A DNA stretch of 64,000 nucleotides from an uncultured Coriobacteriaceae bacterium. Lineage in GTDB: Bacteria > Actinomycetota > Coriobacteriia > Coriobacteriales > Atopobiaceae. Where the stretch lies: assembly GCA_902795065.1 (NCBI GenBank), contig CADBJR010000001.1, forward strand, positions 1 through 64,000, written 5' to 3'. Positions 11,479 to 12,342 of this stretch are shown one piece after another (position 1 is the stretch's first letter; each line of letters starts with the position of its first letter). Under the pieces are notes generated by a model. It did no database searches. It worked only from the letters and a program-made list of their open reading frames with translations, and was not told the DNA's origin. A program made the position numbers and the translations under genes.

Positions 11479-12048
11479 ATGGTCGAGATTCCATTCATAA
11501 CGGGAGAGGTGCTGTTCACGGCTGTGTGGTTCGCCGTGCGCATCATCATCTGCATCGCCCGCCGATCGGTCGACTGGAGGCACGAGGCGCGCCTCCTGCT
11601 CATGTACATCAACGTTGCGGTCATCATCCGCTTCACGTTCTTCCCGTTCTCCTTGGTGGACGGCCACGTGCAGCCGCTCGTGTTCGAGCCTGCTGCAATC
11701 TTTCCGCCCAGGGTGAATCTCATCCCGCTCGACCACCTCTTCTGGTTCGAGACCACGAAAGACCTGCTGACCAACATCATCGGGAACGTTGCCCTGTTCA
11801 TTCCAACGGGAATCATCATCCCGATCATCTGGAAGTGGCTCGACCGTTGGTGGAAGGCCATCCCGACGGGCATGCTCATCTCGCTCATCATCGAGTTGGC
11901 GCAGCTTCCGTTCGCTTCCCGTGCGACCGATATCGACGATCTGATCCTCAATTCGCTCGGTGTCATCATCGGCTACATCATCTATGCGGCAGCGCGTGCT
12001 GTACGGAGGAGAGACGAGCCCTCACGCGGACGCCATCTGCGCCCGTAG
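11479..12048 (+). CDS. VanZ-like family membrane protein
   Basis: A 189-aa polytopic membrane protein of the VanZ family, whose founding member gives low-level teicoplanin resistance by an unknown mechanism; most homologues have no known role. Typical features: a first helix EVLFTAVWFAVRIIICIA, the conserved loop NLIPLDHLFWF, then NIIGNVALFIPTGIIIP, IIELAQL and the signature DIDDLILNSLGVIIGYII. It ends in a basic tail. The tRNA-flank repeat begins 3 bp after the stop codon. Confidence 0.85.
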   Translation: MVEIPFITGEVLFTAVWFAVRIIICIARRSVDWRHEARLLLMYINVAVIIRFTFFPFSLVDGHVQPLVFEPAAIFPPRVNLIPLDHLFWFETTKDLLTNIIGNVALFIPTGIIIPIIWKWLDRWWKAIPTGMLISLIIELAQLPFASRATDIDDLILNSLGVIIGYIIYAAARAVRRRDEPSRGRHLRP

Positions 12049-12051
12049 GAG

Positions 12052-12120
12052 ATTCGCATGCTATGGAAAACGGCGCCTGGAGGCGCCGTTCGGATTGCTC
12101 TGGAGCGGGTGACGGGAATC
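12052..12120. repeat. 69-bp direct repeat, copy 1 (tRNA-Gly 3' end and terminator duplicate)
   Basis: Identical over 69 bp to 12220-12288. On the minus strand it contains the last part of a tRNA-Gly (T-arm start, acceptor strand and CCA) followed by a copy of its terminator hairpin. The match ends inside the T arm, so this copy is a truncated tRNA 3' fragment rather than a functional gene. Confidence 0.85.
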
Positions 12121-12166
12121 CGCGTCTCCGCTGCGCGGATCCGCACGGCCTCGCTTCGCTCGGTCC

Positions 12167-12189
12167 GCGAGGCTCCACCGGAGCCTCGC
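12167..12189. repeat. Perfect 10-bp hairpin between the two tRNA-flank repeats
   Basis: GCGAGGCTCC at 12167-12176 pairs with GGAGCCTCGC at 12180-12189 around a 3-nt loop. Downstream, at 12200-12212, a plus-strand GGGTTCGATTCCC T-arm-like sequence appears, so the spacer between the repeats holds tRNA-like pieces in the opposite orientation. Confidence 0.6.
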
Positions 12190-12219
12190 GCCCTCAACAG
12201 GGTTCGATTCCCATCACCC

Positions 12220-12288
12220 ATTCGCATGCTATGGAAAACGGCGCCTGGAGGCGCCGTTCGGATTGCTCTGGAGCGGGTGACGGGAATC
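12220..12288. repeat. 69-bp direct repeat, copy 2 (genuine tRNA-Gly 3' end)
   Basis: Copy of 12052-12120. This copy joins a complete tRNA-Gly. Spacing between the repeat starts is 168 bp. Confidence 0.85.
12233..12258 (-). terminator. Terminator of the tRNA-Pro/tRNA-Gly operon
   Basis: A 9-bp stem AACGGCGCC/GGCGCCGTT (12237-12245 with 12250-12258) with a 4-nt loop, followed on the minus strand by TTTTCC. It lies 11 nt past the CCA of tRNA-Gly. A duplicate is in the first 69-bp repeat at 12065-12090. Confidence 0.8.
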
Positions 12289-12342
12289 GAACCCGCGTGG
12301 TCAGCTTGGAAGGCTGAAGTTCTACCATTGAACTACACCCGC
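12269..12342 (-). tRNA. tRNA-Gly (anticodon TCC)
   Basis: Read on the minus strand: acceptor GCGGGTG paired with CACCCGC, D arm with TTCAATGGTAGAA, anticodon stem-loop TTCAGCCTTCCAAGCTGA giving anticodon TCC, T arm CGCGGGTTCGATTCCCG, discriminator T and an encoded CCA. It lies just downstream of tRNA-Pro and is ended by the hairpin at 12233-12258. Confidence 0.95.

Follow-up and report, generated by a model that had tools for sequence, protein, structure and literature searches.

Why should the end of an intact tRNA-Gly gene be repeated shortly behind the gene, with tRNA-like pieces in between? Positions 12052-12288 of the window, by which we mean the whole 64,000-nucleotide stretch of DNA analysed here, raise this question. 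tRNA 3' ends are favoured entry points for mobile DNA into bacterial chromosomes, and a sequence-only reading of the locus had proposed an att-like scar of a lost element or, alternatively, a local rearrangement.

The duplicated tRNA-Gly tail in the window

The 69-bp duplication described in that reading was confirmed, 12052-12120 being identical to 12220-12288 at 69/69 positions with a start-to-start distance of 168 bp, and the 99-bp gap between the copies contains no integrase or cargo. The right copy indeed carries the genuine tRNA-Gly 3' end, as both ARAGORN and Rfam return a single intact minus-strand tRNA-Gly (tcc) at 12269-12342, which is adjoined by a tRNA-Pro. The left copy consists of 20 nt of tRNA tail (12101-12120, a direct copy of 12269-12288) and 49 bp of trailer and terminator, and a reading frame at 11479-12048, which we take to be VanZ-like, stops 3 bp short of it. 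The spacer hairpin exists as well, although the 10 bp ascribed to it fall short of the 11 perfect pairs, closed by a GGT loop, found at 12166-12190. Likewise, the T-arm-like piece on the plus strand is longer than claimed: 12200-12219 is 95% complementary to 12275-12294 (1 mismatch in 20) and represents the T-arm and acceptor strand of the tRNA in reverse.

Read on the minus strand, i.e., in tRNA sense, the locus runs from tRNA-Gly(UCC) through a terminator, the reversed T-arm (12219-12200) and a 79-nt hairpin core (12199-12121) to a second tail and terminator (Table 1). In sequence terms, GGGTTC|GATTCCCGTCACCCGCTCCA is followed by a 49-bp trailer with a terminator hairpin, GGGTGATGGGAATCGAACCC, the 79-nt core, GATTCCCGTCACCCGCTCCA again and the identical 49 bp, where GGGTGATGGGAATCGAACCC is a backward copy of the 3' part of the tRNA and the second tail copy starts inside the T-loop and ends with CCA. 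The predicted fold of 12052-12219 (plus strand) was more stable than 200/200 dinucleotide shuffles (z -3.8). A decayed second tRNA gene was rejected, since ARAGORN and Rfam were blank in the spacer and the tail copy lacks a 5' half. At even odds, we read the locus as tRNA-Gly followed by one complete tRNA-specific mini-element unit and then by the stub of a second, T2 being probably what is left of this eroded further unit.

Table 1. Parts of the unit behind tRNA-Gly in the window, in the order met in tRNA sense
Feature	Position	Strand	Basis
tRNA-Gly, anticodon UCC, intact; its end is copied by the unit	12269..12342	-	ARAGORN, Rfam
T1, first copy of trailer and terminator; inverted repeat 12237-12258, then T-run	12220..12268	-	Sequence
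antiT, reversed copy of T-arm and acceptor 3' strand; 5' strand of P1	12200..12219	-	95% complementary to 12275-12294
P2 hairpin, loop and 3' strand, CCC-TGTTGA-GGG	12191..12199	-	GNRA loop in 83/93 units compared
P3 hairpin, 11 perfect base pairs, GGT loop	12166..12190	-	Fold, alignment
P4 hairpin, GACCGAGCGAAGCGAGGCC	12147..12165	-	
P5 hairpin and internal loop, GTGCGGATCCGCGCAGCGGAGACGCG	12121..12146	-	
Second tRNA tail copy, GATTCCC...CCA, from T-loop; nt 1-7 form P1 with antiT	12101..12120	-	
T2, second copy of trailer and terminator	12052..12100	-	

A repeat family with ends matched to the host tRNA

A search with the region matched 60/60 relatives, mostly through tRNAs, and among the matches listed those to the spacer lay elsewhere than behind tRNA-Gly. 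The first five spacer matches opened (L039-L043) were found about 50 bp behind tRNA-Ser, tRNA-Arg (two genomes), tRNA-Ser and tRNA-Leu. We defined a unit as the tRNA tail from T-loop to CCA, the terminator, the reversed T-arm and the hairpin core. While blastn with the spacer matched 17/140 genomes of the family, a covariance model derived from 17 units matched 53/140 under strict filters (30/101 of the better genomes and 13/35 genera), with up to 17 matches per genome. A phylum sample gave matches in 4/198 genomes at E <= 1e-4, the own genome among them; the latter has three, at tRNA-Gly (window), tRNA-Ser-CGA and tRNA-Lys-TTT, among 45 tRNA matches. An exact core pattern was present in 18 stretches of named records, labelled Coriobacteriaceae, Atopobiaceae or Coriobacteriales, and 12/18 bear RUG isolate names, presumably those of rumen assemblies. 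No published description of such repeats was found among the titles and abstract starts returned by keyword searches of open-licence papers. The window duplication is one member of an apparently undescribed family of short, hairpin-rich repeats behind many tRNA genes of gut and rumen bacteria.

For comparison of units, 87 loci, all with matches, were picked from the best matches listed, and their 111 matches yielded 107 distinct units; the genomes are mostly drafts and often metagenome bins, where arrays can be collapsed or misjoined. Units occurred singly or in tandem arrays behind host tRNAs of 21 anticodon types. An intact same-strand tRNA lay within 120 bp upstream of 76/107 units, 70/76 of which start 48-63 bp past it, and several of the remaining units come after another array unit or after a partial tRNA beside an island. 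The length from antiT, a feature general across the family, to the tail was 90-100 nt in the 17 units first aligned, with a few outliers later.

Both ends of the units follow the tRNA at which they reside. The tail copy equalled the upstream tail at 20/20 positions in 81/107 units and at 18/20 or more in 92/107, always in the same orientation, which was the sole orientation searched. In 27 control loci, retrieved for their tRNA-Gly, one of 63 tRNA genes had a tail copy nearby (up to 300 bp away) that matched at 17 or more of 20 positions, and this one belongs to G045, a genome with a unit at tRNA-Val as well; hence, the tail duplication is not due to chance. Beyond the tail, identity of the terminator copies ranged from about 0.4 to 1.0. 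The reversed T-arm matched its own tRNA at 11-12 of 12 positions in 72/73 units (44 and 28), and among 12 kinds of T-arm none fitted better than the own one in 70/73 (mean 11.58 versus 9.89 for other T-arms), as exemplified by Leu-CAA, where GAACC becomes GAACT. Where loci with the same anticodon differ in their tails, the match was also specific to the locus, with a mean of 19.81/20 at the own locus (n=73) versus 17.78 across loci (116 comparisons, eight of them 20/20). The unit ends copy the host tRNA sequence in both orientations.

Cores at different tRNAs, on the other hand, are homologous to one another, and their helices show strong compensatory changes. In a MAFFT alignment of 17 units, 24/35 pairs changed on both sides, giving a covariation score of 0.334 compared to 0.112 for shuffled and at most 0.075 for slid alignments. 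The predicted unit fold is branched with five helices, the pairing of P5 having been drawn by hand.

Tandem arrays, e.g., the two or three units that follow tRNA-Phe and tRNA-Glu, have identical tails and different terminators, and the final unit is often a stub of variable length. Unit presence differs between relatives, so that the possibility of a duplication fixed in all of them, raised by the sequence-only reading, did not hold. Among genomes of the same genus, a unit at tRNA-Gly is absent from G001, G003 and G004, and G002 has the reversed T-arm only, while at tRNA-Ser-UGA there is one unit plus a stub in G001, a stub only in G003 and G002, and neither in the own genome. G001 and G003 thus form a plus/minus allele pair at tRNA-Ser, one unit apart through either gain or loss. 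On one contig of G153, the cores at tRNA-Val and tRNA-Glu are 97.6% identical while their flanking 18-nt spacers share 50%, and this pair, the one clear case, is the strongest individual indication that units move from one tRNA to another. Within two genera, mean core identity was 0.748 for the same tRNA in other genomes (96 pairs) and 0.703 for different tRNAs in one genome (249 pairs), indicating that such movement is infrequent on this time scale.

Several loci contain further sequences of interest. In G003, dozens of dispersed matches were found to two other repeats of about 85 and 130 bp (L042 about 2150-2250 and 2280-2420), the first matching on both strands; they apparently constitute a separate repeat family. 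G104:C2 (about 134978-147425; L151, L128) has a stretch of approximately 12.4 kb from tRNA-Glu to a tail copy farther on, both followed by the same flank, encoding HipA-like, ATPase (DUF4143-like) and ImmA/IrrE-like genes (named by eye) and containing two units. In G106:C40 (L130 9691-12011), a single AlbA/Schlafen-like gene (by eye) is flanked by two tRNA-Arg 3' halves, both of which have a unit behind them, and the arrangement resembles a small island without integrase. In G155 (L152 4546-5871), a tyrosine-recombinase-like gene (by eye) adjoins a tRNA-Phe 3' half with a unit downstream. Altered tRNA-Glu tails (GGGTTCGACT.CTTCGCGG..GGGGGCACCA) were seen upstream of units in L134 (about 740), L128 (about 2450) and L143 (about 540), and these tails from three genomes are perhaps att sites of one island family. 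We treated the island-like stretches as ordinary islands at the same tRNAs. Gene cassettes were rejected as the rule, since 92/107 units have an upstream tail within 140 bp and a gene cannot fit.

A pattern that asked for a reversed T-arm, 75-104 nt of any sequence and a tail start, and was thus blind to the core, matched 20/396 phylum genomes. Ten of the 20 loci opened, including that of the own genome, had a tRNA and a tail copy of at least 18/20; the other ten were mostly ordinary tRNA genes on the opposite strand, with L206 ambiguous. Seven of the ten positive loci (L209-L212, L214-L216) belong to f10, a family of the same order, and have a different core with the same kind of ends, in a two-unit array in the case of G361 (L211). 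A crude loop finder placed c(GNA)g loops in 8/26 listed f10 hairpins and in none of L215 or L216. In another family of the phylum, L218 (G215) has a tRNA-Gln followed by a reversed T-arm at +22, an unrelated G-rich core, a tail copy of 18/20 and a second reversed T-arm farther out, making it a possible distant relative.

Mobile DNA, structured RNA or rearrangement

The att-like scar proposed for the locus holds in part. The tail copy begins in the T-loop, which the excerpted text of PMC3146451 describes as an integration sub-site in tRNA and tmRNA genes, and the unit is absent at tRNA-Gly in G001, G003 and G004. However, a homologous core with tRNA-specific ends recurs at many tRNA genes in 53/140 genomes, which led us to abandon a single lost large element, such as one prophage or ICE, as the main reading and indicates that the short spacer is itself the element. 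We give a probability of about 0.5 to the unit being site-specific and non-autonomous, either a mini-element or a recombination site, which makes use of the tRNA T-loop, copies its target on both sides and forms arrays.

On this reading, the core would work as a mobile or recombination module, non-autonomous and in the form of folded DNA, either single-stranded or extruded. P1, in which the reversed T-arm pairs with the tail copy that follows, would be recognised together with the stable small hairpins, and exchange would take place in the T-loop of the tRNA gene (GGTTC|GANTCCC). Integration would duplicate the tail plus terminator, so that the tRNA remains intact, and would leave the reversed T-arm behind. 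Arrays would then grow or shrink by further rounds or by recombination between the direct repeats of about 65-85 bp, while the distal end decays. Action as DNA, involvement of a site-specific recombinase and the direction of movement are what we infer from these patterns. We know of no transposase that copies target sequence in both orientations, and the insertion step is therefore hypothetical. A more elaborate version, to which we hold only tentatively, would be a non-integron DNA recombination system anchored at tRNA genes, where folded single strands enter the T-loop, the reversed T-arm acts as guide and the core is re-aimed by two-sided target copying; if so, the second core class of f10 and the tRNA-Gln case would make this tRNA-anchored system widespread.

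The structure of the core bears on whether DNA or RNA is the acting form. GNA triloops are exceptionally stable in DNA, and with a crude loop finder P5 had a c(GNA)g loop in 61/89 units and a triloop in 74/89, while triloops were found in P3 of 62/89. Pairing cells in a model-fitted alignment of the 107 units comprised 3480 Watson-Crick, 49 G-T (1.4%), 15 C-A and 72 other combinations, compared to 6.6% G-T in 126 distinct tRNA sequences from the loci examined, for which ARAGORN's own pairing was used so that the two figures are not like-for-like. Rare G-T pairs and the prevalence of GNA triloops in one hairpin favour folded DNA. In contrast, the GNRA preference in P2 (83/93 units, the TGTTGA of the window being an exception) is RNA-like and counts against a pure DNA reading. 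A structured non-coding RNA, made by tRNA read-through or from its own promoter, could pair through its reversed T-arm with the T-arm or a tRNA fragment and possibly serve as a splint in tRNA quality control, repair or tail exchange. The strong covariation, the GNRA loop, the 11-12/12 nt of complementarity to the host T-arm in 72/73 units and the retention of acceptor strand and CCA in the tail copy agree with such an RNA, as does a terminator-like signal between tRNA and unit in only 40/73 loci (crude test). We nevertheless consider it unlikely, since G-T pairs are scarce for an RNA, triloops dominate P3 and P5, it falls in no Rfam family, and array growth and stub decay resemble DNA rearrangement.

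Two further explanations seem improbable to us. Replication slippage or template switching at hairpins, combined with gene conversion and independent of any dedicated enzyme, would suit direct repeats that are 65-85 bp long and lie as close as about 168 bp, which should expand and contract, as well as the stubs of variable length and the unit/stub allele pair. It does not account for the spread of a homologous core to many tRNAs with matching reversed T-arms or for the core boundaries in G153, and slippage on its own would leave both the shared core and the reversed T-arm unexplained. The units could also be cis-mobilisable scars of tRNA-targeting integrative elements, the tail copy being the att site left after island loss, as may be compared to the Dehalococcoides ssrA islands, whose excerpted description (PMC3146451) likewise has a tail copy of about 20 bp starting in the T-loop. 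The few island-like stretches seen at the same tRNAs (tRNA-Glu in G104, tRNA-Arg in G106 and tRNA-Phe in G155) are in line with this, whereas random scars should vary in size and content and not share one homologous core of near-constant length, with tRNA-matched reversed T-arms, across 21 anticodon types.

Profile searches covered two enzyme families, integron integrase and Y1 transposase, and a driver was found in neither. No integron integrase scored above the TIGR02249 cut-off in 140 family genomes; weaker matches below it occurred in 138/140, so that these searches speak neither for nor against tyrosine recombinases as a whole. Y1_Tnp matched in 95/140 genomes, with no match in the draft genomes G012, G023 and G064, which hold 14, 8 and 9 units. 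A RAYT/Y1 transposase or an integron integrase as driver is thus unsupported by genome profile matches. At the gathering score, Rfam returned only tRNA in the window and seven unit loci; blastn with the window unit gave no match in records of either phages (50,697) or plasmids (72,556), and 0 contigs of a viral collection carried either of two exact patterns.

The family points to some unexplained mechanism by which DNA is moved or rearranged at tRNA genes. If the mini-element reading is true, a gene-free, array-building repeat with spare tRNA tails kept intact and a reversed target sequence matched to the tRNA would represent a novel type of mobile element or recombination site, whose copying of the target at its ends poses a definite question of mechanism. 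A unit acting as RNA would instead be a new regulator linked to tRNAs. In either form the unit accounts for tRNA tail duplications such as that of the window.

Comparison with known systems

REP/RAYT palindromic repeats are short dispersed hairpin repeats, whereas the units are tied to tRNAs, have target copies on both sides and occur in three unit-rich genomes without a Y1 match. Guide-containing mobile elements, such as group I introns and bridge-RNA elements, carry, next to a folded core, a sequence that complements both flanks of the insertion point. The units differ from these in having no known ribozyme core or transposase, in a length of only about 95 nt and in the duplication of the tail.

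Integron cassettes and their attC sites, as far as the excerpted text of PMC2727003 describes them, also form arrays beside an anchor and conserve fold more than sequence. Unlike them, the units are gene-free, come without an integron integrase above the cut-off and have a closing stem set by the neighbouring tRNA. In place of the R and L boxes, extrahelical bases, unpaired central spacer and single long stem of attC in that text (PMC2727003), they show a branched fold with five helices, and the signs that would suggest attC-like recombination of a folded single strand are two and indirect, namely few G-T pairs and GNA loops.

Elements integrated at tRNA T-loops share with the units a direct 3'-end copy from the T-loop, seen in the window and at 18/20 or better in 92/107 units, but have an integrase or cargo between the copies, which the units lack. 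According to the excerpted text of PMC3146451, the Dehalococcoides ssrA islands resemble the units in T-loop exchange, a direct 3'-end copy of about 20 bp, tandem accretion and integrase-less members, yet they carry genes and share one target gene. The units, in comparison, repeat at about 168 bp, are gene-free, combine a reversed T-arm with a conserved hairpin core and reside at many tRNAs with matched ends. In conclusion, the units lack at least one defining feature of each of integron attC sites, integrative elements at tRNA T-loops, REP/RAYT repeats, Rfam RNAs and phage or plasmid elements and, as judged from a limited literature and database search, apparently make up a new family.
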